DNA of 33,898 bases. Source: an uncultured Clostridia bacterium. Lineage in GTDB: Bacteria; Bacillota; Clostridia; Christensenellales; UBA1750. Below the pieces are notes generated by a model, which was not told where the DNA came from, searched no databases, and worked only from the letters and a program-made list of their open reading frames with translations. A program made the position numbers and the translations under genes. The stretch spans positions 1 through 33,898 of the forward strand of contig CALWRM010000153.1 in NCBI GenBank assembly GCA_944383925.1, given 5' to 3'. Each line of letters starts with the position of its first letter. The stretch's first letter is position 1. This document shows, piece after piece, positions 2,534-28,295 of the stretch.

Positions 2534-2562
2534 AGTTTAGCTCCAAAGGCCGCGCTTGTCAA
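2534..2562 (-). promoter_or_regulatory. Sigma-A-type promoter for the lyase-PHP operon
   Basis: On the minus strand TTGACA (2557-2562) and TAAACT (2534-2539) are separated by exactly 17 bp. The predicted start is near 2527, leaving a leader of about 75 nt. The 145-bp tandem array begins immediately upstream of the -35 element, so array DNA abuts the promoter. Confidence 0.75.
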
Positions 2563-2599
2563 ATGAAGTCGAGGCCGCGCGCCCGCCCCCTGCCCAGGG

Positions 2600-3725
2600 A
2601 CGCGGGAAGAACGCGCCCCCCGCCTTCGAAAAGGGAAACGGGCCGCCACCCCGGCCTTTTCGACGGGAAGCAAACCGGGCCCTTTCGGCCTTCCCAACGG
2701 AATTCAAACCCGCCCTCGGCCTTCGAAAAGGGAAACGGGCCCGCATCCGGCCTTTTCAACGGAACACAAGCCCGCAACCGCCCTTCGAAAAGGGAAACAG
2801 GCCGCGCCACGGCCTTTTCAACGGGGAGCAAGCCTTTCCCAATGGAATTCGAATCCGCCCTCGGCCTTCCCAAAGGGAAGCGGGCCCGCATCCGGCCTTT
2901 TCAACGGAACGCAAGCCCGCAACCGGCCTTCTCAAAGGAAACAGGCCGCGCCTCGGCCTTCCTAAGGGGAAACAAATCAGGCCCTCGCGGCCTTCCCAAT
3001 GGGAAGCGGGCCCGCAATCCGCCCTTCCCAAAGGAAAACATGCCGGACGCACCTGCACCTTCGCAAAGGGAACGCAGGCCGCTGCCCCGGCCTTCCCGAC
3101 GGGAAGCAAACCAGGCCCTTTCGGCCTTCCCAGCGGAATTCGGGCACGCCCTCGGCCTTCCCAACGGGAAGCGGGCCCGCCATTGGCATTTTCAAAGGAA
3201 CGCAAACCCACAACCGCCCTTCTCAAAGGAAACAGGCCGCGCCACGGCCTTTTCATCGGGGAGAAAACCATTCCCAACGGAATTCAAACCCGCCCTGGAC
3301 TTCCCCACCGGGAAACGGGCCCGCATCCGGCCTTTTCAACGGAACGCAAACCCACAACCGCCCTTCTCAAAGGAAACAGGCCGCGCCATGGCCTTTTCAA
3401 CGGGGAGCAAACCTTTCCCAATGGAATTCGAATCCGCCCTTGGCCTTCCCAACGGGAAACGGGCCCGCATCCGGCCTTTTCAACGGAACGCAAGCCCGCA
3501 ATCCGCCCTTCCCAAAGGGAAACGGGCCCGCGCCCAGGCCCTCCCAACGGGAAGCAAACCTTTCCCAGCGGAATTCGAGCCCGCCCTCGGCCTTCCAACC
3601 CCAACCGGCATTTTCAACGGATCACAAACCCACATCCGGCCTTCCCAATGGGAAACGGGCCGCGTCCAGGCCCTCCCAACGGGAAGCAAACCTTTCCCAA
3701 CGGAATTCGGGCCCGCGCCCGCCTT
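2600..3725. repeat. Higher-order tandem array, about 145-bp period
   Basis: This stretch has no believable gene and is made of variant copies of a unit of about 145 bp. A marker GGAATTC begins at 2699, 2844, 3135, 3279, 3423, 3570 and 3702; the gaps are 145, 291 (two units), 144, 144, 147 and 132 bp. Each unit holds several short imperfect sub-repeats such as CCTTCCCAACGGGAAGC, CCTTTTCAACGGAACGCAA and CCTTCTCAAAGGAAACAGG. Many are small palindromes of the form CTTCCC-AAC-GGGAAG. All three plus frames stay open for hundreds of codons, which reflects composition rather than coding: the period changes frame between units. It fills the gap between the oxidoreductase terminator and the lyase promoter. 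Confidence 0.85.
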
Positions 3726-3735
3726 CGCGCAAGGA

Positions 3736-3760
3736 AAGGGCCGGCTGCGCGCCGGCCCTT
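3736..3760 (-). terminator. Intrinsic terminator after the oxidoreductase
   Basis: A perfect 10-bp stem, AAGGGCCGGC with GCCGGCCCTT, and a 5-nt loop lie 8 bp beyond the oxidoreductase stop. On the minus strand it is followed by a T-rich but interrupted tail (TCCTT). Confidence 0.75.
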
Positions 3761-3767
3761 TTCCCTT

Positions 3768-4907
3768 TCATTCCTCCGCCGCCACGAAGCCGCCCCTGCG
3801 CTCCGAAAGGTAGCAAAGGTCCAGCAGCCTCTGCACGTAGGCCCCCTCCTCCAGGGACGGGCTCGGCCGCGCGCCCCGGAAGTAGCAGTCCAGAAAGCTG
3901 TAATAGCAGTGCATGTGGGCCCGGGCCCAGCCGATGGCGTTTTTCGGCGGCAGGAAGGCGCCGCCGGGGGCCGGGTAGTCCTGAATGGTCTCCAGCCGCT
4001 GCCAGCCGCGCTCGCCGCCGTACAGCCCGCCGGGCCGGGTGTTGTCGTAAAAGTAGAGCCAGTTGGGGTCCATCAAGTTGAAGCGCAGGGCGCCCTTGTC
4101 GCCGCAAAGCTCCACCGTAAAGCCGTCGGAGGCGCCAGTGGCCACCTTGGAAACCTCCACCAGGCCCTGGGCGCCGTTTTGCAGGCGCAGCAGCAGATAG
4201 CTGGCGTCCTCGCCCAGGCGCTCGATCCGGCCGCCGCCCTTGCGGGGCCTGGAGGCATACAGGGTCTGGTTGCGGCAACAGAGGCTTTCCACGGGGCCGG
4301 CCAGGTGCACCAGCATGTCCAGGGCGTGGGAGCCCAGGTCCAGCAGCACGCCGCCGCCGCAGATCTGCCTGTCGCTCTTCCAATTGACGGGCCTTTCCTC
4401 GTCCACGGAACCGGAATGCAGGTACTGGATGCGGAAGTTCAGCAGCTTGCCCAGCCGCCCCTCCTCCACCAGCTGCTTTGCCCGCAGGGCGCAGGGAAAG
4501 AAGCGGTTGTGAAAGGCCACCTGGGCCATCCGCCCCGCCCCGGCGGCGGCCACCCGGGCCGCGCTCGGCCCGTCCACGGACACGGGCTTGTCCAGATACA
4601 CCGCCTTGCCGGCCGCAAAGGCCTGCAGCGCCATCTGCTCGTGCAGGGCGTTGGGCGTGCAGATGGACACCACGTCCACCCCCGGCAGGGCCAGCAGCTC
4701 CTCAAAGCTGTCGCAGGCCCGCGCAAAGCCCAGCTCCTCCTGGGCCATTTTTGCGTTTTCCACATGTCCCGAGCACACCGCCCGAAGCACCGGCCGAAAT
4801 GGCAGCCCCTCGTAAAACAAGGGAATGTTCAGCGCCGCGTAGGCGTGGGTGCGGCCCATGAAGCCCCAACCCGCGATGCCGATGCCAATCGGCCTTTTTT
4901 TCGTCAT
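3768..4907 (-). CDS. Gfo/Idh/MocA-family oxidoreductase
   Basis: This 379-residue NAD(P)-dependent dehydrogenase is of the Gfo/Idh/MocA type, usually acting on sugars, inositols or related polyols. The N-terminal Rossmann domain has a glycine-rich loop (GIGIAGWGFMG, residues 8-18), and DKPVS at 106-110 matches the conserved EKP-type catalytic lysine motif. GGGVLLDLGSHALD (184-197) supplies the D and H of the substrate domain. I chose the ATG at 4907 because GGAAGGAGA lies 6 bp upstream. The longer reading frame to 4952 would run into the asnS terminator hairpin. No promoter is evident between asnS and this gene, so transcription may come from read-through. The substrate is unknown. Confidence 0.88.
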   Translation of the reverse strand: MTKKRPIGIGIAGWGFMGRTHAYAALNIPLFYEGLPFRPVLRAVCSGHVENAKMAQEELGFARACDSFEELLALPGVDVVSICTPNALHEQMALQAFAAGKAVYLDKPVSVDGPSAARVAAAGAGRMAQVAFHNRFFPCALRAKQLVEEGRLGKLLNFRIQYLHSGSVDEERPVNWKSDRQICGGGVLLDLGSHALDMLVHLAGPVESLCCRNQTLYASRPRKGGGRIERLGEDASYLLLRLQNGAQGLVEVSKVATGASDGFTVELCGDKGALRFNLMDPNWLYFYDNTRPGGLYGGERGWQRLETIQDYPAPGGAFLPPKNAIGWARAHMHCYYSFLDCYFRGARPSPSLEEGAYVQRLLDLCYLSERRGGFVAAEE

Positions 4908-4931
4908 CTGGATTCTCCTTCCCCTTTGGAA

Positions 4932-4969
4932 AAGGGGCCGGACGAAGCGCATGGCCCGTCCGGCCCCTT
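4932..4969 (-). terminator. Intrinsic terminator of asnS
   Basis: A perfect 13-bp inverted repeat (4932-4944 with 4957-4969, AAGGGGCCGGACG and its complement) with a 12-nt loop is followed on the minus strand by TTTCC. It sits between the asnS stop and the oxidoreductase start. Confidence 0.75.
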
Positions 4970-5008
4970 GATCGACTTCACAACGGATCTTGTCGCAACG
5001 TCCCCTGG

Positions 5009-6400
5009 TTAGAACTCGGCGTTCTTGGTGGTTCTGGGGAAGGGAAGCACGTCGCGGATGTTGTTCACGCCCGTCAGGTACATCACCAGGCGCTCAAAGC
5101 CGATGCCAAAGCCCGCGTGCTTCACGCCGCCAAAGCGGCGCAGGTCCAGATACCACCAATAGTCCTCCTTCTTCAGGCCCAGCTCGTCCATGCGCTGTTC
5201 CAGCAGCTCCAGCCGCTCCTCCCTCTGGGAGCCGCCGATCAGCTCGCCGATGCCCGGCACCAGCATGTCCATGGCGGCCACGGTGCGGCCGTCGTCGTTT
5301 TGGCGCATGTAGAAGGCCTTGATCTCCTTGGGATAGTCGGTGACGAACACCGGCCTGCCAAAGGTGGTCTCGGATAGATAGCGCTCGTGCTCGGTCTGCA
5401 GGTCGCAGCCCCAGTAGGCCTTGTATTCGAAGGCGTCGTTGTTCTTTTCCAGAATTTTGACGGCCTCGGTGTAGCTCACGCGGGCAAAGTCCGCGTCCTT
5501 CACCCGTTGCAGCCTCTCCAGCAGGCCCTTATCCACAAACTGGTTCAGGAAGGCCAGCTCCTCCGGGGCCTTTTCCATCACATAGCCGATGATGTGCTTG
5601 ATCAGGCCCTCGGCCAGCTCCATGTTGTCGGCCAGGTCGGCAAAGGCGATCTCCGGCTCGATCATCCAAAATTCGGCGGCATGCCTGGGCGTGAAGGAGT
5701 TCTCCGCCCGGAAGGTGGGGCCGAAGGTGTAGATGTTCTGGAAGGCCATGGCGAAGCACTCGCCGTTGAGCTGGCCGGAAACGGTCAGGTTGGCGGGCTT
5801 GCCGAAGAAATCCTGGGAAAAATCCACCTCGCCGTCCTGCGTCAGGGGCGGGTTCTTGGCGTCCAGCGTGGTCACGCGGAACATCTCGCCCGCGCCCTCG
5901 CAGTCGCTGGCCGTGATCAGCGGGGTGTGCACGTAGACGAAGTCCCGATCCTGGAAGTAGCAGTGGATGGCGTGGGCCGCCAGGGAGCGGATGCGAAACA
6001 CCGCCGAATATAGGTTGGTGCGGGGCCGCAGGTGGGCGATGGTGCGCAGGTATTCCACGCTGTGGCGCTTCTTCTGCAGGGGATAGTCCGCCGGGCAGCT
6101 GCCCTCCACCACCAGAACGTCCGCCTTCAGCTCAAAGGGCTGCTTCATGCCCGGGGTCAGCACCAGCTCGCCCTCCACGGTCACGGCCGTGCCCACGTTC
6201 AGCTTCACGGCCTCCTTGAAGTTCGCAAGCCGGCCCTCCTCCGCCACCACCTGCAGGTTGCGGAAATAGGTTCCGTCGTTGAGCTCAATAAAGCCGAAGC
6301 TCTTGACGTCCCGCGCGGTGCGCACCCAGCCGGAAACCCGGCGCCGGCCGGCGGCTTCGTCCATCCGGGTATACAATTGGCGTATGCTCGTACGCTCCAT
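5009..6400 (-). CDS. asnS: Asparagine--tRNA ligase
   Basis: This cytoplasmic class II aminoacyl-tRNA synthetase charges tRNA-Asn with asparagine. An N-terminal OB-fold anticodon-binding domain ([20 protein letters not shown]) precedes the catalytic core. Motif 2 appears as [21 protein letters not shown] and motif 3 as [13 protein letters not shown] followed by [11 protein letters not shown]. The length of 463 residues is typical. Two further in-frame ATGs lie upstream, but GGGAGGA sits 9 bp before the ATG at 6400 and directly against the preceding one, so I use 6400. It has its own promoter with a leader of about 45 nt, too short for a T-box. The product suggests direct Asn charging rather than sole reliance on GatCAB. 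Confidence 0.96.
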
Positions 6401-9445: not shown

Positions 9446-11920
<2,475 letters not shown>

Positions 11921-12033: not shown

Positions 12034-13980
<1,947 letters not shown>

Positions 13981-14000: not shown

Positions 14001-14285
14001 CTAGGGGCGCAAGAAGGCCTGGCTGTCGCCCAGGGCGCCGCGCAGCCACAGCGTTTTGGAGGAGATGGGGGAGTAGTACACGCGGGTCCGGTTGCCGCTT
14101 TGGCAGATGACCACGGACTTAAAGTCGCCGGGGCCCACGTTGCGCACGAAGCCCTCCTCCTCGGCCATCTGCAAGAAACCCTGGGTATCCGGGCTGAGGG
14201 AACTGGAAAGGTCCAAGATGGCGACGACCTCCCTGGAAAGGACGACGACGTCCTCGCCAACGTGCAGGATCAAGGCGCTGATCAT
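14001..14285 (-). CDS. remB: RemB-like DUF370 regulatory protein
   Basis: This small protein of the DUF370/RemB family (B. subtilis YaaB), associated with control of extracellular matrix genes, is normally encoded just before gyrB, as here. Conserved features are HVGEDVVVLSREVVAILDL at the start and VYYSPISSKTL near the end. The ATG at 14285 has GGAAGGG almost touching it. A TTG at 14273 would give MILHVGEDV, matching the B. subtilis start MYIHLGDD, with a 12-bp spacing, so the true protein may be 90 rather than 94 residues. It is first in the gyr operon and has a small hairpin (CGCCGG-TTC-CCGGCG) in its leader. Confidence 0.85.
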   Translation of the reverse strand: MISALILHVGEDVVVLSREVVAILDLSSSLSPDTQGFLQMAEEEGFVRNVGPGDFKSVVICQSGNRTRVYYSPISSKTLWLRGALGDSQAFLRP

Positions 14286-14500: not shown

Positions 14501-14533
14501 GGCCAAGGGAAGGGCGTTGCCCTTCCCTTGGCC
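14501..14533. other. Perfect 15-bp hairpin
   Basis: GGCCAAGGGAAGGGC (14501-14515) is followed by GTT and its exact complement (14519-14533). There is no T-run on either side, so it is not an ordinary terminator. It stands at the left end of the repeat block upstream of the gyr operon. Confidence 0.7.
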
Positions 14534-14540
14534 GGGACTG

Positions 14541-15345
14541 GCCAGGGGCTCTGCCCCCGGACCCCCGCTCAAGGGGACGCCCCTTGAGAATCCCCGCCGC
14601 GAGCGGGGCCCGCTGCCCCGTTCCCCTGCCTTGCCTTCCTCCTTGCCTTTGCAATCGGGAAGAGAGGGGCGGGCGGGGACTGGCCAGGGGCCCTGCCCCC
14701 GGACCCCCGCTCAAGGGGACACCCCTTGAGAATCCCCGCCGCGAGCGGGGCCCGCTGCCCCCGGTCTTCCTTTCCTTCTTGCATTTACAAACGGAGGAAA
14801 GGGGACGGCGCTGGCTAGCCTTTCGCCTTTGTTTTGCCTTTCGTCCTGCCTTTGCGATTAGAACTGGCCTTTTTTCTTGCATTTACAAACGAAGGAAAGA
14901 GGGCGGACACGGGCAAGCCTTTCGCTTTTTTTGCCTTCCTTCCTGCTTCACAAATGGGAACGTGAGGTATGGGCGGGCTAGCCAGGGGCTCTGCCCCCGG
15001 ACCCCCGCTCAAGGGGACGCCCCTTGAGAATCCCCGCCGCGAACGGGGCCTGCTGCTCCTAGCCTGGCCTTTCCTTCTTGCTTTTACAAACGGAGGAAAG
15101 GGGACGGCGCTGGCTAGCCTTTTGCCTTTGTTTTGCCTTTCGTCCTGCCTTTGCGATTGGAACTGGCCTTTCTCCTTTCAATTGCAAACGAGGATAGGGG
15201 AACGGCACGGGCTAGCCTTTTGTCCTGCCTTCGCAATTGGGAACGTGAGGTGCGGCTGGGCTAGCCAGGGGCCCTGCCCCCGGACCCCCGCTCAAGGGGA
15301 CGCCCCTTGAGAATCCCCGCCGTAGACGGGGCCCGCTGCCCCGTT
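14541..15345. repeat. Dispersed hairpin repeat, four copies, partly tandem
   Basis: The gap 14,358-15,510 holds no gene. It contains four copies of a module of about 85 bp starting at 14541, 14683, 14981 and 15264. Each reads GCCAGGGGC, then CCCCCGGACCCCC, then CTCAAGGGG-ACG-CCCCTTGAG (perfect hairpin), then CCCCGCCGCGAGCGGGG. Between them, a segment with CTTGCATTTACAAACG and a CCTTTGCGATTAGAACTGG-like tract occurs at about 14776 and again at about 15076, so a unit of about 300 bp has been duplicated in tandem. The short open frames across it are repeat translations and I do not call them. Confidence 0.85.
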
Positions 15346-15465
15346 CCCTGCCTGTACAACGACCGCAGGATGTTCTTTGGTTTGCCTGGTTAGTCTTTCC
15401 ATTTCCACTCGCTTTCACACCCCAGGAATTGGGCTCAAAGCCTGTTTTTTCCTGTCGCAATCGGG

Positions 15466-15510: not shown

Positions 15511-16215
15511 ATGGATGCTCGCGTCTACCATTCCATCAGCTATGGCCTATACGTGTTGGGCGTCAAGGGCGAAAACGGCGCCATGGGCGGCTGCGTGGTG
15601 AACACGCTGTTCCAGATCACGGCCACGCCTCCCGTCTTCGCGGTGAGCGTCAACAAGGAAAACCAAACCTGCTCGCTCATCCAGAAGGAAGGCCTGTTCA
15701 CGGCCAGCGCCTTGGCCCAGGATTGCGACCCCGGCATCATCGGCCTGTTCGGCTTTCACTCCGGCCGGGATGTGGACAAAAACCAAAACGGCGATTTGGC
15801 ACTCTCTCCCAACGGATTGCCCTACCTGAAAAACGGCAGCTGCGCCTATCTGGAGTTCGCGGTTTGCGGCCAGCAGGATCTAGGCACCCACCTGCTGTTC
15901 TTCGCCAGGCTGATCAACGGCGAGGTGCTTTCCAGCTCCACCCCGCTGACCTACGCCTACTACCAGACGGTGCTCAAGGGAAAGAGCCCCAAGCTGGCGC
16001 CCACCTACCGGCCCGACGCAACCACCCCCGCCCCCGCTAAACAGCCGGCCCCCGAGGCACCCAAGGCAGAAGCGGCGCAGGATTCCGGGAAAAAGCAGTA
16101 CGTATGCACCATCTGCGGTTATGTATACGACGGCGAGATCCCCTTCGAGGAGCTGCCGGAGGATTGGACCTGTCCCATCTGCGGGGTTCCCAAATCCATG
16201 TTCGAGGTGAAATAA
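15511..16215 (+). CDS. Flavin reductase-rubredoxin fusion (high-molecular-weight rubredoxin type)
   Basis: This 234-residue two-domain redox protein is expected in the cytoplasm. Residues 1 to about 165 form a split-barrel FMN-binding flavin reductase domain ([10 protein letters not shown], then [20 protein letters not shown]). A Pro/Ala linker (167-190) leads to a compact rubredoxin domain with iron ligands C199, C202, C221 and C224 (CTICG and CPICG). The spacing between the Cys pairs is short, as in rubrerythrin-type rubredoxins. In Moorella the equivalent Hrb passes electrons to oxidative-stress proteins such as flavodiiron proteins; that role is inferred here. AAGGAGG lies 11 bp before the ATG. 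The GNAT gene begins immediately after its stop. Confidence 0.9.
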
Positions 16216-16980
16216 TTGAAATCCATCCCCACCGACATCGCCCGCACCCTGACCGCGCGCTTTCCCGGCGTGCAGGACACGGCGCTGTATTCCGCCCTGC
16301 AGGGCCATATGGGCTGCGTACTTGGCAGCGAACAGCCGCCGTTGGACTTTGTCTACGCCAATTGCGGCGAGTACCACTACTTTGGCGGAAATCCAGACCA
16401 TCCCCAAGCGGAAGCCCTGATCCGCAGCCTGCCCGCGGGCGCCTACCTGGTCTCCTTCGAAGAGGCCTGGAAGGCGCTGTTCACCCGCCTGTTGGCGGGC
16501 CGGCACGAGGTGCAGGAGCGCTACATGCTGCAAAAGAACATGGACGCCCTGGACGAGAAGAAGCTCGAGGGGTTTTTCTCCGCCGTGCCGGAGGGCTTTC
16601 GGCTTGTGGCCATGGATGGCCCCCTGTTTCGCCGCGTGCTGCCCCTTCCCTGGGCCCATGAGTATTTGGAGCAATACGCCTCGGAGGAGGACTTCTGCAA
16701 GCAGGGCTTTGGCTTTGCCCTGCTCCAGGGCGAGGAAGCGGCCTGCATCGCGCCGGCCTTCAGCGTGTTCGACGAGGGCATCGAGGTGGGCATCGCCACA
16801 AACCCCGCCTTCCGCAAGAGGGGGCTGGCCACCGTCTGCGCGGCGCGGCTGGTGTACGAGGCCAAGCGCAGGGGACTGCTGGCCAACTGGGACGCGGCCA
16901 ACAAGCTGTCGCTCCATCTGGCCATGAAGCTGGGCTATGCCTATGAAGGCACCTATACGGTCCACCACATTCTATCCTAG
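16216..16980 (+). CDS. GNAT-family acetyltransferase
   Basis: This 254-residue protein has a C-terminal GNAT fold. The acetyl-CoA loop is visible as EVGIATNPAFRKRGLATVCA, followed by WDAANKLSLHLAMKLGY, the usual motif-B region. The N-terminal 130 residues are less conserved, as in the larger GNAT_acetyltran-type proteins. The TTG at 16216 directly follows the TAA of the rubredoxin fusion, with GAGGTG 6 bp upstream inside that gene, so the two are translationally coupled. The acceptor substrate is unknown. The candidate oriC begins 9 bp after its stop. Confidence 0.85.
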   Translation: MKSIPTDIARTLTARFPGVQDTALYSALQGHMGCVLGSEQPPLDFVYANCGEYHYFGGNPDHPQAEALIRSLPAGAYLVSFEEAWKALFTRLLAGRHEVQERYMLQKNMDALDEKKLEGFFSAVPEGFRLVAMDGPLFRRVLPLPWAHEYLEQYASEEDFCKQGFGFALLQGEEAACIAPAFSVFDEGIEVGIATNPAFRKRGLATVCAARLVYEAKRRGLLANWDAANKLSLHLAMKLGYAYEGTYTVHHILS

Positions 16981-16988
16981 CCCCGCTT

Positions 16989-17259
16989 TTGTCCACAGCG
17001 AGGCTTTCCACAGGTGGATCGTTCTTGGGATAAGTTTGGACGGGCGTTTGCGCAATGCGGACGCCCGTTTTTGATTCCTTTCTGTAAAGAAAACCATTTA
17101 TGGGGACGGTTGTTTGTGGGGCTGTGGAAAAAACGGTGCAATTGTGGATAACTCTTTGGCTTTTCCACAAAGGGGTGTGGCCGTTTTTTTCCAGGCGCCA
17201 GGCTGACAAACCAGGCTTTTCCACAATATCCACCGCCCTACTACTACGACTACTTCTTT
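16989..17259. other. Candidate replication origin: DnaA-box cluster
   Basis: Within 240 bp there are one perfect DnaA box, TTATCCACA (minus strand, 17143-17151), and three copies of TTTTCCACA (minus at 17123-17131; plus at 17161-17169 and 17217-17225). TTGTCCACA (16989-16997) and CTTTCCACA (17004-17012) add weaker matches. The right edge carries a DnaA-trio-like tract (separate entry). Gene orientation switches close by: genes on the left run leftward and genes on the right run rightward. No dnaA or dnaN is adjacent, which is unusual. The stretch 16,981-17,669 holds no convincing protein gene. Confidence 0.75.
17239..17259 (+). promoter_or_regulatory. DnaA-trio-like unwinding element
   Basis: Seven consecutive triplets, TAC TAC TAC GAC TAC TTC TTT, start 13 bp after the last TTTTCCACA box with a short GC-rich CCGCCC between. 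This is the layout of the basal unwinding system described in B. subtilis (DnaA boxes, GC-rich spacer, DnaA-trios). Strand opening would proceed rightward. The DNA just beyond is only mildly AT-rich. Confidence 0.65.
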
Positions 17260-17405
17260 CCTATACCGCCTTTGTCATGCTTAAGAATTGGGAAGGTGGC
17301 TGCCTTCCAATTGCGCAAGGGGGACAGAGAAGCGCGCTTTGTTTCCTGCAAAGAACGCCGCAAGGAAAGCCGAAGAGGAGGAGAGAGGAAGATGGCTGCG
17401 CCTGG

Positions 17406-17461
17406 TGCGGGGATTCTCAAGGGGGCTCCCTTGAGCGGGGGTCCGGGGGCTGGCCCCCGGC
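17406..17461 (-). repeat. Inverted copy of the dispersed hairpin repeat
   Basis: On the minus strand this reads CCCCCGGACCCCC, CTCAAGGGAGCCCCCTTGAG and GAATCCCC, the same module as the four copies at 14.5-15.3 kb but in the opposite orientation. It lies about 150 bp to the right of the DnaA-trio tract. Confidence 0.75.
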
Positions 17462-17465
17462 CTGT

Positions 17466-17506
17466 CCCCGTCCAGCCGCCGGACCATGTCCGGCGGCTGG
17501 ACGGGG
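17466..17506. other. Perfect 19-bp hairpin beside the candidate origin
   Basis: CCCCGTCCAGCCGCCGGAC (17466-17484) and its exact complement (17488-17506) are separated by only CAT. CATTTTAG follows on the right, so it could act as a strong rightward terminator or a structured barrier between the origin and the next gene. Confidence 0.6.
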
Positions 17507-17552
17507 CATTTTAGCAGGCGCCGGCAACTTGCTGGACGATGGGTCTTTGTCC

Positions 17553-17581
17553 TTTACCCGCAGGCGCTTTGGTTGTATGAT
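17553..17581 (+). promoter_or_regulatory. Possible promoter for the DUF4091 gene
   Basis: TTTACC (17553-17558), a 17-bp spacer and TATGAT (17576-17581) lie about 90 bp before the ATG at 17670. Each hexamer has mismatches to consensus. Confidence 0.4.
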
Positions 17582-17669
17582 GGAAGGGAAGAGAAAATCG
17601 TGCAAACGCAAGGCCGTGGTTCTGTTGACGTATGCATGGATCACAAAAGCGCATGAGGAGGCGAGAAAA

Positions 17670-19400
17670 ATGTCGTTGCTGTTCAAGCTTGTAAACGAAG
17701 GGTTCAAGCTTTGCTTGGACGGGGAGACCGCCTTTGAGGTGGAACGGGAACCGGCGCTGACGAGGGTCTTCGGCCAGCGGGGCGGGCGGGTGTGCTTTCA
17801 GGCGCTGTTGCGCAGCGAGGAAGCGGCCATATGGAACCTGGGACAGGAACCCTGGTTCAGCCAGCAGGGCCCCCTTCTGCACCTGCGCCTGGAGCTGCGC
17901 GCTCCATATCCCCTGCGGGCTTGGCACGAGCAGCTGCACCTGGACGACGATGGCAACCTGCGCGCGGACGCCCTGCTTCCCCATCCCGTGCGGGAACTGC
18001 ACGCCAAGGAAACGGCGGCGGCCTTCTTCGAGATGGAACTGCCAGCGGACGCGCGGCTGGACGAGGGCCAGGGCATCGAGCTTCGGCTGTATGCGAGCAG
18101 GCTTACCGGAGAGGAAAGGCTGGTGGAGCGGCTGGAGCTCCCCCTAACCGTCTATGCGGCCAGGCAGCTGGCGCCGGAGGAGAGGCCCATCTACCTGGAT
18201 CTTTGGCAGCATCCCTGCAACATTGCCCGAAAGCACGAGGCCGCCCTCTGGTCGCAGGAGCATTTTGAGGCGATGGAAGGCTATGCCAAGGCCCTGGCCG
18301 GCCTGGGACAGCGGTCCATCACGGTGCTGCTGTCCGACGCGCCCTGGCGCGGACAAAGCTGCATGCAAAACCAACGCAACCCTTCCAACCTTTTCGAATA
18401 CTCCATGACGCGCATCTTCCGCGGCAAGGACGGCAGCCTTCGCTTCGACTTCTCCATCGTGGACCGGGTGATCGAGCTGTTCGAGCGCTGCGGCGTCCAG
18501 GGAGAGATCGAATGCTTCGGCCTGGTCAATATCTGGCCCAACCAGATCTTCGACCCAAAGCCCCTGGTGGAAGGGGACGTGGAGCCCCAGATCAGCCTGC
18601 GCTGCTTAAATGAAAGCAGCGGCAGCTATGAATACCTGCACGACACCCAGGAGGTGGAGGAGTATTTTCGGGCCGTCGAGCGGCATTTCGTGCAGACCGG
18701 CCGGGTGGATCGGGTGCGCGTAGCTGCGGATGAACCGGCGGATCCGGAACGCTTCGAACGGGCTGTGGAGCGGCTCCGGCGCTGCGCCCCCAGGCTGCGC
18801 CTGCGCACGGCCATCAACCATGCGGATTTTATCGGCCGCTTTGGCCAGCAGATCGACGAGTTTGTGCCGAACCTGGAATCCAGCTGCAAGGAGTACGAGC
18901 GGCTGAAGGCGTACCAGAAGGCCATGCCGGATAAGCGCTTTTTGTGGTATGTGTGCTGCGTTCCGGACCATCCAAATACCTTCCTGCGTTCCAAGCTGCT
19001 GGAAGCCAGGCTGATTGGCCCCCTCAGCTATTTGCTTGGCTTCGACGGCTTTTTGCGCTGGAACTTTACCGTTTGGCCGGAGGATCCCCGCTTGGATATT
19101 CGATACGGAAACTTTGCGGCAGGGGATACAAATTTCGTCTATCCTGGCCGTGGAAGGGAACCCTTGCTCAGCCTGCGCTATAAGGCCTTGCAGCGCGGAC
19201 TGGAGGACCATGCCCTGCTTTGTCAGGCGCCCAAGGAGGCGGCCGAGCAAGCGCTTGGGCTGATCTTCCGCAAGAGGGATCCCAGGGACTTCCTGCAGGA
19301 TCGCGCGGGCGAGCTATTGGATTTTCAGCAGATCTGCTCCACCACGTACGCCGATTTTGAACGGGCGCGGGAGCTGTTGCTGCAGGCCGTGGCCAATTAG
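17670..19400 (+). CDS. DUF4091 / GH123-like glycoside hydrolase-type protein
   Basis: This 576-residue protein has an N-terminal beta-rich region of about 170 residues and a C-terminal TIM-barrel-like DUF4091 region related to GH123. Family landmarks are YLDLWQHPCNIA, AADEPADPERF (the Asp-Glu pair at the GH123-like catalytic position), FDGFLRWNFTVWPEDPRLD, GDTNFVYPG and LLSLRYKALQRGLEDHALL near the end. I see no signal peptide, so it is probably cytoplasmic. I chose the ATG at 17670 because AGGAGG lies 8 bp upstream; the frame is open much further back through the origin region, which is not coding. Activity on an N-acetylhexosamine-containing glycan is an inference from GH123. Confidence 0.85.
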   Translation: MSLLFKLVNEGFKLCLDGETAFEVEREPALTRVFGQRGGRVCFQALLRSEEAAIWNLGQEPWFSQQGPLLHLRLELRAPYPLRAWHEQLHLDDDGNLRADALLPHPVRELHAKETAAAFFEMELPADARLDEGQGIELRLYASRLTGEERLVERLELPLTVYAARQLAPEERPIYLDLWQHPCNIARKHEAALWSQEHFEAMEGYAKALAGLGQRSITVLLSDAPWRGQSCMQNQRNPSNLFEYSMTRIFRGKDGSLRFDFSIVDRVIELFERCGVQGEIECFGLVNIWPNQIFDPKPLVEGDVEPQISLRCLNESSGSYEYLHDTQEVEEYFRAVERHFVQTGRVDRVRVAADEPADPERFERAVERLRRCAPRLRLRTAINHADFIGRFGQQIDEFVPNLESSCKEYERLKAYQKAMPDKRFLWYVCCVPDHPNTFLRSKLLEARLIGPLSYLLGFDGFLRWNFTVWPEDPRLDIRYGNFAAGDTNFVYPGRGREPLLSLRYKALQRGLEDHALLCQAPKEAAEQALGLIFRKRDPRDFLQDRAGELLDFQQICSTTYADFERARELLLQAVAN

Positions 19401-25490: not shown

Positions 25491-26369
25491 CTATTCCTGT
25501 AACTCCCAGCCGTGCAGGGCTTCGTAGAGCCGTTCCAGCTCCTCCGGGCTATTGTAGTGGAGGATGAGCTTTCCCCTAGTGGAGCTGCCGCTGGCCGTGG
25601 CCCGCACGCCTAGGGCCTTGCGTGCGGCCTCTTCCAGGAGACCGAGCTCCGCCAGGCGCGGCGCTTCTGTGGGTTTCTTCTTTTCCGATCCCTCTCTTTG
25701 GAGGCGCACCAGGGCTTCCGTTTGGCGAACGCTGAGCCCCTCGTCCACCACGCGCTTGGCGAGGCGCAGCTGGCTGGCTTCCTCTGGCAGGCCGAGCAGG
25801 GCCCGGGCATGGCCCTCGCTCAGGCTGCCCTGGGCCACCATATCCAGGAGCTCCTCCGGGAGAGCCAGCAAGCGGAGCAGGTTTGCGACGGCAGGCCGGC
25901 TCTTGCCGACCTTGGCGGCGGCTTCCTCCTGGGTAATCGCACATTGCGTAATCAGGCCCTGAAGCGCCATGGCCGTTTCTACCGGATTTAGATCGTCGCG
26001 CTGCAGGTTTTCCACCAGGGCGATTTGCATGCGCTGGAGCTGCTCCGCCTCGCGGACCACGCAGGGAACCTGATCCAGGCCCGCAAGCCTTGCCGCGCGC
26101 CAACGCCGCTCCCCGGCTATGATTTGGTATCGTCCATTCCGTTCCGCAACGAGCAGAGGCTGCAGGACGCCCACCTCGCGGATGGATTGGGCCAACTGTT
26201 CCAACTTCTCCTGATCGAAGCGCTTCCTCGGCTGATCCCGGTTGGGATCGATGAGGCCCACATCCAAGAAGCGGATGCGGCTCTCGTCGCCGGTCTCCTG
26301 CTCCGCTTCCTGTTCGTATTCATGAAAGAGCACGTCAATACCCCTGCCGAGGGCCGGCCGCTTCTTCAT
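25491..26369 (-). CDS. parB: Chromosome partitioning protein ParB (Spo0J)
   Basis: This 292-residue CTP-dependent DNA clamp loads at parS and spreads on DNA, working with ParA in origin segregation and SMC loading. The N-terminus [14 protein letters not shown] is typical. The CTP-binding motif GERRWRAAR is at residues 86-94, followed by the helix-turn-helix ([20 protein letters not shown]) and a C-terminal dimerisation region ending in [16 protein letters not shown] chose the ATG at 26369, which overlaps the parA stop as ATGA and has GAGGAGG upstream; a longer frame to 26408 would overlap parA by 43 bp. A parS site lies just past the stop. Confidence 0.96.
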
Positions 26370-27142
26370 TTGCCTTCCTCCTCGTTCCAATGGATGAATT
26401 CGTCGCAAAGCCGCTCATAGGCGAGGGCGCCCGTGGACTTGGGATCGTAAACGCTGATGGGTTGGCCATAGCTGGGCGCCTCGCCCAGGCGCACATTGCG
26501 CGGGATGATGGTGGAATATACCTTGGAGCCGAAAACCTTGCGCACCTCGTCCACCACCTGTGCGCCCAGGTTGGTGCGGCTATCCAGCATGGTCAAGGCG
26601 ACGCCTTCGATTTCCAGGCCGCGATTGAGCTTTTTCTTCACCAGGCGCACGGTATTCATCAGCTGCGTCAGGCCCTCGAGGGCGTAGTATTCGCACTGGA
26701 TGGGAATCAACACGCTGTCGGCGGCTGTGAGGGCGTTGAGCGTCAGCAGGCCGAGCGACGGCGGACAATCGATGAACAGATACTCGTACAGGGGCAAGGC
26801 GGGTTCCAGCTGCCGCTTGAGGATCTGCTCTCGCGCCAACATGGATACCAGCTCGATTTCCGCGCCGGCCAAGGAGATGTTGGAAGGCAATATGTAGAGG
26901 CGTTTGACCGCCGTTTCCAGCACCGCTTCCTGGGTGGGCGTGTCGTTGATGAGCACGTCGTAGATGGAGCTAGCCACCTGGCGCCGGTCAATGCCGACGC
27001 CGGAGGTGGCGTTGCCTTGGGGATCTAGATCCACCAAAAGGACGCGCTTACCCCGTTCGGCCACGCTGGCTGCCAGGTTGACGGCGGTGGTGGTCTTGCC
27101 AACGCCGCCCTTTTGGTTGGAAATCGCGATAATTTTAGACAA
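26366..27142 (-). CDS. parA: Chromosome partitioning ATPase ParA (Soj)
   Basis: This 258-residue deviant Walker ATPase of the ParA/MinD family binds the nucleoid as an ATP dimer and drives origin segregation with ParB. The deviant Walker A motif KGGVGKTT (residues 11-18) has both signature lysines. [15 protein letters not shown] and [12 protein letters not shown] are the switch motifs. Translation appears to start at TTG (27142), with AAAGGCGGG about 10 bp upstream. That site can pair with the CCTTTTTTT before the start as a short hairpin (AAAGG/CCTTT), which may reduce initiation (inference). It is coupled to parB by an ATGA overlap. Confidence 0.96.
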
Positions 27143-27296
27143 AAAAAGGCCCGCCTTTCAAACGTGATCAACATCCCCGCGCGCAAGCCGCTGCGCGCGC
27201 TAAGGATATTATACCGTCAATCGGCGGGAAAGAGAAGGGGGATGGCTCAATTCCCGGAAACGAAATCTGCCCGGGCGCAGGGAAACGGTCGGGGGT

Positions 27297-27312
27297 TGTT
27301 CCACGTGAAACA
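27297..27312. promoter_or_regulatory. parS site between noc and parA
   Basis: TGTTCCACGTGAAACA differs from the B. subtilis parS consensus TGTTTCACGTGAAACA at one position that is variable among natural sites. It lies 23 bp beyond the noc stop. Confidence 0.9.
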
Positions 27313-27335
27313 GGCAGCGCCAATGCGAAAGGGGA

Positions 27336-28178
27336 CTAGGAGCGCTTGGGGATGGTGAGACGGATCTCCAGGCCCTTTTCGGTCTCCTGTGCGTCGTAGG
27401 CGGGTTGCAGGCCGGCGCTTTGCATCTGCTGGACAATGGTCTTGATGGAGTTGACATAGAGGCGGGTATCGCGCACGAAGGCGGAGACCTTATTGGCGGC
27501 GGGTCTTTCCTCCTTCTCGATGCCGTAGATGCGGGAGATGGTGCGTTCCACCAATTCCTCGGTCGCCTTGACGTTGAGGGACTGTTCCACGATCACGCGC
27601 GCGATCTTGATTTGCATCTCCTCGTCGTGCAGGCGGAGCAGGGAGCGGGCATGGCGTTCGGTGAGGTTATGCTCCAGCAGCAGGGCCTTCACCGAAGCGG
27701 GAAGCTTGAGGATGCGCATCTTGTTGGCGATGGTGGATTGATTTTTGCCGAGGCGGCGGGCCAGCTCCTCCTGGGAAAGGCCGTGGTCGCGGATGAGGTT
27801 TTGATAGCCCTCGGCTTCCTCCATGTAATGGAGGTTTTCGCGCTGCAAATTTTCCATCATGGCGATGACGGCGCTATCCTGCTCGTAGGCGGAAAAGACC
27901 AGGGCGTCGATGGTGGTCATGCCGGCCATGCGGCAGGCGCGCAGGCGGCGCTCGCCGGCGATGAGCTCATAGACGTCGTTGCCGGCCTTGCGCACGGAAA
28001 TGGGTTGCAGCAGGCCGTACTGACGGATGGATTGACACAGCTCTTCCAGGGCTTCCTGGGAAAACACGCGGCGCGGTTGGTATGGATTTGGCCGAATGGA
28101 ATCTATGGGGATGCGCGCGACTTCGCGCTGGCGCATGCGAATATTTCTACGCTTCAGCTGTACCTGGGTTTGCAGCAT
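27336..28178 (-). CDS. noc: Noc-like ParB paralogue (nucleoid occlusion protein)
   Basis: This second ParB/Spo0J-family protein is encoded just upstream of parA as noc is in Bacillus. The core has IPIDSIRPNPYQPRRVF, the nucleotide motif GERRLRA (75-81), ENLQRENLHYMEEAEGYQ and a helix-turn-helix (LSQEELARRLGKNQSTIANK). Noc links DNA binding to inhibition of division in Bacillus. The membrane-binding amphipathic helix of Bacillus Noc is not obvious in this short basic N-terminus, so the role may differ. The start may be ATG 28178 or GTG 28181; AAAGGGG lies upstream. No perfect Noc site (ATTTCCCGGGAAAT) was found in the window. Confidence 0.85.
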   Translation of the reverse strand: MLQTQVQLKRRNIRMRQREVARIPIDSIRPNPYQPRRVFSQEALEELCQSIRQYGLLQPISVRKAGNDVYELIAGERRLRACRMAGMTTIDALVFSAYEQDSAVIAMMENLQRENLHYMEEAEGYQNLIRDHGLSQEELARRLGKNQSTIANKMRILKLPASVKALLLEHNLTERHARSLLRLHDEEMQIKIARVIVEQSLNVKATEELVERTISRIYGIEKEERPAANKVSAFVRDTRLYVNSIKTIVQQMQSAGLQPAYDAQETEKGLEIRLTIPKRS

Positions 28179-28295
28179 CACTTGTTTTTCGCCCCTTTGC
28201 AAATGTCATGGTCAGTAAATTCTGCTACGTATGCAATTTTCCTGCATGAAAGGCAAGAGATAAAAACGTGCATTTATGGGATAATTCGACATATG

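Follow-up and report, generated by a model that had tools for sequence, protein, structure and literature searches.

A probable chromosome origin of the Bacillus type lying apart from dnaA in an uncultured Clostridia bacterium

Genes and features of the window

The window (the whole stretch of DNA analysed, 33,898 nucleotides) was assigned its genes by Pfam, open reading frames and marker comparison. From left to right it carries AsnRS, gyrA, gyrB, remB (RemA-like), a flavin reductase–rubredoxin gene, a GNAT gene, a cluster of DnaA boxes and a GH123/DUF4091 gene, followed on the right of the latter by a ThrE pair, AzlC, a gene for a beta-eliminating-lyase family protein, ProRS, parB, parA, a noc-like parB gene and queT; what we take to be the AsnRS and ProRS genes were named from their sequence. 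The main elements outside the DnaA-box cluster are:

9446-11920, minus strand: gyrA, origin-linked, presumably retained with the core
12034-13959, minus strand: gyrB, origin-linked, presumably retained with the core
14001-14285, minus strand: remB, origin-linked, presumably retained with the core
14506-15353, minus strand: GC-rich dispersed repeat in tandem copies, inverted relative to 17407-17477
15511-16980, plus strand: flavin reductase–rubredoxin and GNAT genes, a block found with the core also in a same-genus genome, there in the opposite direction relative to gyrB
17100-17669, plus strand: in-frame extension to the GH123 gene from the mechanical ORF list, crossing the core and judged non-coding
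17407-17477, plus strand: inverted partner copy of the GC-rich repeat, right of the core
25491-28202, minus strand: parB, parA and the noc-like parB gene (ORFs, Pfam, marker comparison)
27297-27312, no strand assigned: parS site TGTTCCACGTGAAACA, the only match of the genome at ≤1 mismatch

The two neighbours of the cluster, GNAT (PF12746) and GH123/DUF4091 (PF13320), are those named by the first-pass annotation, in which the origin-type genes gyrB–gyrA–remB and parAB–noc of the same window had been overlooked. In many Firmicutes remB–gyrB–gyrA and noc–parA–parB flank oriC, and the window is origin territory. Indeed, gyrA–gyrB–remB are located 3 kb to the left of the core of the cluster and parB–parA–noc with the only parS 8–10 kb to its right, so that both kinds of origin-proximal marker, gyrBA and parS/parAB, are nearby (gyrB at 3 kb, parS at 10 kb). 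Being on the minus strand to the right of the core, parB–parA–noc are, unlike gyrBA on the left, opposed to the predicted direction of the fork, which counts against an origin at the core; the GC skew around them is positive on the plus strand despite their orientation. At the left end of the window, the plus-strand ORFs at 1-786 and 2556-5012 are repetitive and of low complexity (with repeats such as GPERLALAG and RPSQREAGP) and have the appearance of in-frame readings of non-coding repeat arrays.

Anatomy of the core

The cluster is located between the stop codon of the GNAT gene at 16980 and the GH123 match, and consists of the following elements:

16989, plus strand: weaker DnaA box TTGTCCACA, distal, from the box scan of the window
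17004, plus strand: weaker DnaA box CTTTCCACA, distal, from the same scan
17123, minus strand: DnaA box TTTTCCACA, in the distal/central group 16989-17169
17143, minus strand: perfect DnaA box TTATCCACA, in the same group
17161, plus strand: DnaA box TTTTCCACA, in the same group
17217-17234, plus strand: tandem box pair TTTTCCACA-ATATCCACC, likely counterpart of B. subtilis boxes 6 and 7
17217-17225, plus strand: DnaA box TTTTCCACA, first of the tandem pair by the trios
17226-17234, plus strand: weaker DnaA box ATATCCACC, second of the pair
17235-17237, plus strand: GCC spacer from the box pair to the first trio, from the core alignment
17238-17258, plus strand: DnaA-trio tract CTACTACTACGACTACTTCTT, i.e., CTA CTA CTA CGA CTA CTT CTT, predicted start of strand opening

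All the elements that had been proposed for 16989-17259, a DnaA-box cluster and a trio tract, were found in their places, including the seven trio-like triplets after the box pair. As to the counts, the single perfect box and the three TTTTCCACA boxes were borne out, whereas the weaker boxes turned out to be three and not two; overall, 16989-17262 contains one perfect DnaA box and four one-mismatch boxes, plus weaker ones. Compared with 2000 first-order Markov copies of the window, the density of boxes is well above chance: 11 boxes with ≤1 mismatch are present in the window vs a simulated mean of 2.3, and the densest 240 bp hold five of them vs a maximum of two in any simulated window (0/2000 above 2), while CTACTACTA occurs once vs 0.008 expected per window. 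The cluster is also intergenic; the extension 17100-17669 is judged non-coding because the Pfam match of the GH123 gene starts only at 17670 and is confined to the part from there on. An Rfam search of the window gave no match.

The distance from the first box of the pair to the first trio is 12 bp, and at least one DnaA box lies within 16 bp of at least three 3'-NAN-5' trios, as expected of a unit of the basal unwinding system (BUS) type. Among the seven triplets CTA (read as 3'-GAT-5' on the opposite strand) occurs four times, CTT twice and CGA once; the last violates the published 3'-NAN-5' rule, the other six fit it and the first three are all CTA. The AT content near the trios is only ~55%, a point that counts against an origin.

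The resemblance to the unwinding region of B. subtilis claimed by the first-pass annotation holds: tandem box pair, short GC-rich spacer and a run of 3'-GAT-5' trios are all there. In B. subtilis DnaA is led onto the single-stranded trios by the box pair next to them, and a distal box exerts its effect through looping (PMC6669920; PMC8287927); in bacterial origins tandem boxes and a box-to-trio spacing of 10–13 bp are the commonest traits (PMC8287927). The core has both traits, its 12 bp falling inside the 10–13 bp peak, and shares with B. subtilis incC/oriC2 (the BUS) the distal boxes, the tandem pair by the trios, the short GC-rich spacer and the 3'-GAT-5' trios running along one strand (PMC6669920; PMC8287927). 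On the other hand, incC is located between dnaA and dnaN with a second group of boxes before dnaA, whereas the genome of the window has dnaA and dnaN on another contig. In C. difficile, oriC2 carries 5'-CACCTACTACTATTACTACTATGA-3', and its DnaA-dependent opening was demonstrated, although in vitro it required that the plasmid also carry oriC1 (PMC7561715). This trio string, which likewise follows DnaA boxes, nearly equals the CACCGCCCTACTACTACGACTA of the window (PMC7561715), the difference being that the C. difficile oriC2 occupies the dnaA–dnaN gap and the core lies beside GNAT and GH123 genes. Judged from its sequence, the core appears to have the construction of the unwinding half (oriC2/incC) in the bipartite origin of Bacillus and Clostridia. 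With the E. coli oriC it has in common that a single oriC is distal to the dnaA gene (PMC13220808), but the latter belongs to a different phylum and has a 13-mer AT-rich DUE, an IHF site and only putative trios.

Conservation of the core in the family

A DNA search with the intergenic region returned short matches in relatives, confined to the box–trio segment. The aligned cores begin with a box (TTTTCCAC-), directly followed by a second box, three bases and the trios. Seven of the eight cores have a box-to-trio spacing of 12 bp, counted from the first box, and G013 has 13 bp; comparable distal boxes are also present in relatives. The pattern TTTTCCACNNNWTNCACNGNNCTACT, allowing ≤2 mismatches, has one match per genome in nine of 11 genomes of the family, and the reversed control pattern has none in the same 11, so that the core is, as expected of a BUS-type unit, single-copy and conserved in relatives. 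At ≤1 mismatch the sampled genomes of other families gave no match to TTTTCCACNNNWTNCACNGNNCTACT (200 genomes of the order were covered), and the use of the family pattern as an order-wide marker was rejected, since among these 200 genomes it is confined to the family of the window.

The neighbourhood of the core in the family is that of an origin. It is located between recF and gyrB in three genomes (G002, G003 and G006), just after recF and in opposite orientation in two (G004 and G010) and ~3 kb from dnaA in G007. No match was found in G005 and G009; dnaA was also not found in G005, whose draft may lack the origin region. In both genomes of the window's genus (g1) parS, in each case the only one of the genome, lies within ~11 kb of the core.

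A list of all TTWTCCACA sites of the genome revealed further groups before mraZ and before an Amidase_3 gene, as well as an inverted pair. The mraZ group, three DnaA boxes in ~35 bp just upstream of the gene, is present in both genus genomes (G000:C132:3710-3741 and G001:C5:59335-59370), mraZ being the gene with which the division and cell wall (dcw) cluster begins. The amidase array (G000:C138:17665-17768) precedes the Amidase_3 (N-acetylmuramoyl-L-alanine amidase) gene in most family members and, in three genomes from other families, adjoins an amidase match; its boxes are on the same strand and in most members have start spacings of 9, 12 and 42 bp, i.e., near whole helical turns. It contains no trios, and the arrangement suggests that DnaA may control a wall amidase. 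As a replacement origin this array was rejected, given its coexistence in relatives with a core at the canonical recF locus and its lack of trios.

The existence of such clusters, one of them conserved in the family, lends some colour to the idea that the window cluster, too, serves promoter regulation or DnaA titration, the probable role of the mraZ and amidase clusters. However, trios are present in the window cluster alone, the amidase array occurs alongside the core where the latter is at the canonical recF locus, and the core tracks recF, gyrB and parS rather than one promoter; a regulatory or titrating cluster is thus scarcely credible here.

Position of dnaA in the genus

The search of the whole genome for dnaA, suggested in the first reading as a check, located the gene on a different contig. 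The draft genome of the window (G000; 2.38 Mb in 158 contigs) has a single dnaA, on contig C62, where jag–yidC–rnpA–rpmH (all on the minus strand) are followed by dnaA–dnaN (on the plus strand). Since C62 is only 9 kb long, the distance between dnaA and the core could in this draft be as small as ~17 kb. The other genome of the genus (G001), whose GyrB is 90% identical to that of the window (the next relatives are Christensenellaceae), is more informative. Its 70 kb contig C8 has the order parB–parA–noc ... gyrA–gyrB–remB–[core]–GNAT–flavin reductase, with the core flanked by 46 and 24 kb, and its 74 kb contig C6 has recF–dnaN–dnaA–rnpA with 59 kb of sequence beyond recF. The core is absent from C6, including the 59 kb read beyond recF, and the recF 3' flank has no DnaA boxes. 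In G001 dnaA and the core are at least ~25 kb apart, the drafts setting no upper bound. These long contigs, with the core on one and dnaA on the other, show that the split is real, and their flanks rule out contig breaks as its sole cause.

That the split arose by faulty assembly or binning, with dnaA really beside the core, might be argued from the fact that both genus genomes are many-contig drafts and that inverted repeats near 15.3 and 17.4 kb of the window could mislead an assembler. This is nonetheless very improbable in view of the G001 contigs, where the core sits within 70 kb and dnaA–dnaN–recF elsewhere, of the recF 3' flank devoid of boxes, and of a genome of the sister family f4 in which dnaA and a dnaN–recF box array are 1.21 Mb apart inside one contig.

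The bipartite arrangement of Firmicutes, oriC1 and oriC2 flanking dnaA, is not found in the genus, dnaA being on another contig in both genomes. The counterpart of oriC1 is on another contig in G000 and has no box group in G001, unlike C. difficile oriC1, which had to be on the same plasmid as oriC2 for opening in vitro. Specifically, in the rpmH–dnaA gap of G000 a group of two perfect boxes and a weaker one immediately precedes dnaA, while in G001 this group is lost and a single box remains in the gap, TCATCCACA beside rpmH, common to G000, G001 and G003. No trios were found in the rpmH–dnaA or dnaA–dnaN gaps. Since the gaps have no trio and parS is on the contig of the core in both genomes, a trio-type origin is unlikely to exist beside dnaA, and G001 is the least likely place for one.

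GC skew

The skew was computed plain and at third codon positions with gene strand fitted, for the window and for contigs C8 and C6 of G001, C4 of G004 and C2 of G002. The cumulative minimum of the window is at ~10.5 kb, i.e., ~7 kb to the left of the core, which tells somewhat against the latter as origin. With gene strand fitted, a step at 17.2 kb lowers the RSS from 175 to 142; the fit is better still with cuts at 9.4 and 12.0 kb (RSS 116 and 117, respectively). No clean minimum is seen at the core in C8 of G001 (70 kb) and C4 of G004, whereas G003 has its minimum at the core, at 7.0 kb. Along C6 of G001 the plus-strand skew falls steadily and is lowest near recF, next to dnaN–dnaA, at the end of the contig. 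Near a much-rearranged origin the skew is weak evidence either way, and here it is too weak and scrambled to place the origin; for this genus the case given as refuting in the first reading, a minimum away from ~17 kb such as beside dnaA, retains some probability.

The C6 minimum is one of the points favouring an origin at the dnaA locus itself (in the rpmH–dnaA or dnaA–dnaN gap, on C62 in G000), the window cluster being a leftover or a regulatory element. Firmicutes origins are described as conserved in organisation and in most of them the origin is at dnaA (PMC7561715), and G000 retains the boxes just before dnaA. Against this stand the lack of any trio in either gap, the reduction of the rpmH–dnaA gap of G001 to the lone TCATCCACA, and the location of parS and of the conserved single-copy core on the other contig in both genomes. 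An origin at the dnaA locus is accordingly an improbable alternative.

Unlinking elsewhere in the order

Genome G179 of family f4 has a 3.26 Mb contig, a near-complete chromosome. When its GC skew was sampled along the contig, almost every value between 0.16 and 1.70 Mb was negative, and values from 1.84 Mb on were positive. The dnaA gene is at 0.459 Mb, within the negative arm and clearly away from the skew minimum, and in 100 kb read around it there was no match to dnaN, recF, gyrB or parAB and no group of three boxes. Six boxes with ≤1 mismatch are instead present at 1.6707-1.6710 Mb, directly before dnaN–recF. The cumulative skew is nearly flat from ~1.669 to 1.726 Mb, and the box array with dnaN–recF (1.671 Mb) sits at the start of this flat bottom; the lowest point itself, at 1.722 Mb, was rejected as origin, since the low-GC gene cluster next to it contains no group of boxes. 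The array ends with TTTTCCACA-GGATTCACA-CCCC-CTATAACGATGACGA and an AT-rich run. It resembles the window core in being oriC-like and away from dnaA, with a strong box, a weaker box, CCCC, trio-like triplets and the AT-rich run. In G179 only dnaA left, dnaN–recF having stayed with the origin, whereas in the genus of the window dnaN–recF left with dnaA. The G179 dnaA thus lies 1.21 Mb from the probable origin, and this distance from a dnaN–recF box array near the skew minimum indicates that unlinking is tolerated in the order.

In G013, also of f4, a glucosamine-6-phosphate isomerase-family gene and dnaN flank a box–trio element, and dnaA is found on a different contig. A third f4 genome, G119, has a DnaA-box array upstream of recF (G119:C34:58165-58312), dnaA on another contig and no dnaN match in 13.4 kb read around the array; it is another rearranged origin region of this family. 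The unlinking of oriC from dnaA is not unique to the genus of the window within the order: in two families dnaA has parted from the origin, and its companions differ between them.

Probable function and proposed history of the core

The proposal of the first-pass annotation that this is a candidate oriC not next to dnaA is strengthened by the single-copy, family-conserved core, its linkage to recF and gyrB in relatives and the parS within ~11 kb. We estimate at nearly nine in ten the probability that 16989-17262 is a working chromosome origin (oriC) of BUS type, with dnaA unlinked and DnaA encoded elsewhere in the genome. If so, the core is an oriC of the ordinary Bacillus type whose location is unusual, a known kind of origin that has lost its dnaA linkage. 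No direct precedent for an origin between recF and gyrB, or for a Christensenella origin, was found in the freely accessible literature searched.

By analogy with B. subtilis and C. difficile, DnaA produced from the distant gene would bind the distal and central boxes and the tandem pair at 17217-17234; a DnaA-ATP oligomer would then extend from the pair along the trios at 17238-17258, opening the duplex, and the helicase would be loaded at the opened tract. The distal boxes (16989-17169) probably take the looping role.

As to how this arrangement arose, the simplest reading of the comparison of relatives is an ancestral order rnpA–rpmH / dnaA–dnaN–recF–[oriC]–gyrB–gyrA, from which, in genus g1, dnaA–dnaN–recF would have moved off while oriC stayed with gyrBA and parABS. 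The oriC–GNAT–flavin reductase block would later have flipped relative to gyrB; the trios point toward gyrB in G001, as they do in G002 and G003, and the block is inverted in the window. The GC-rich repeat copies bracketing this block, with inverted arms of 43–57 nt that are 74–81% complementary, offer a ready route for a flip by recombination. Further copies of this repeat are located on contigs C28 and C66 of G000.

A broader reading, to which we give rather less than even odds, is that in this order the Firmicutes-type origin became independent of dnaA more than once, that the trio module acts as a one-part origin without the dnaA-side half required in vitro by C. difficile, and that the block flipped in the window might still flip.

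Origin finding and genome-start conventions for Firmicutes make use of the rnpA–rpmH–dnaA–dnaN context and would mark the wrong place in this order. Furthermore, the natural split of a bipartite origin makes testable whether the dnaA-side half is needed, given a box-pair/trio module, and reveals which genes are kept with the origin when dnaA leaves: gyrBA and parABS in the genus of the window, dnaN–recF in the sister family.
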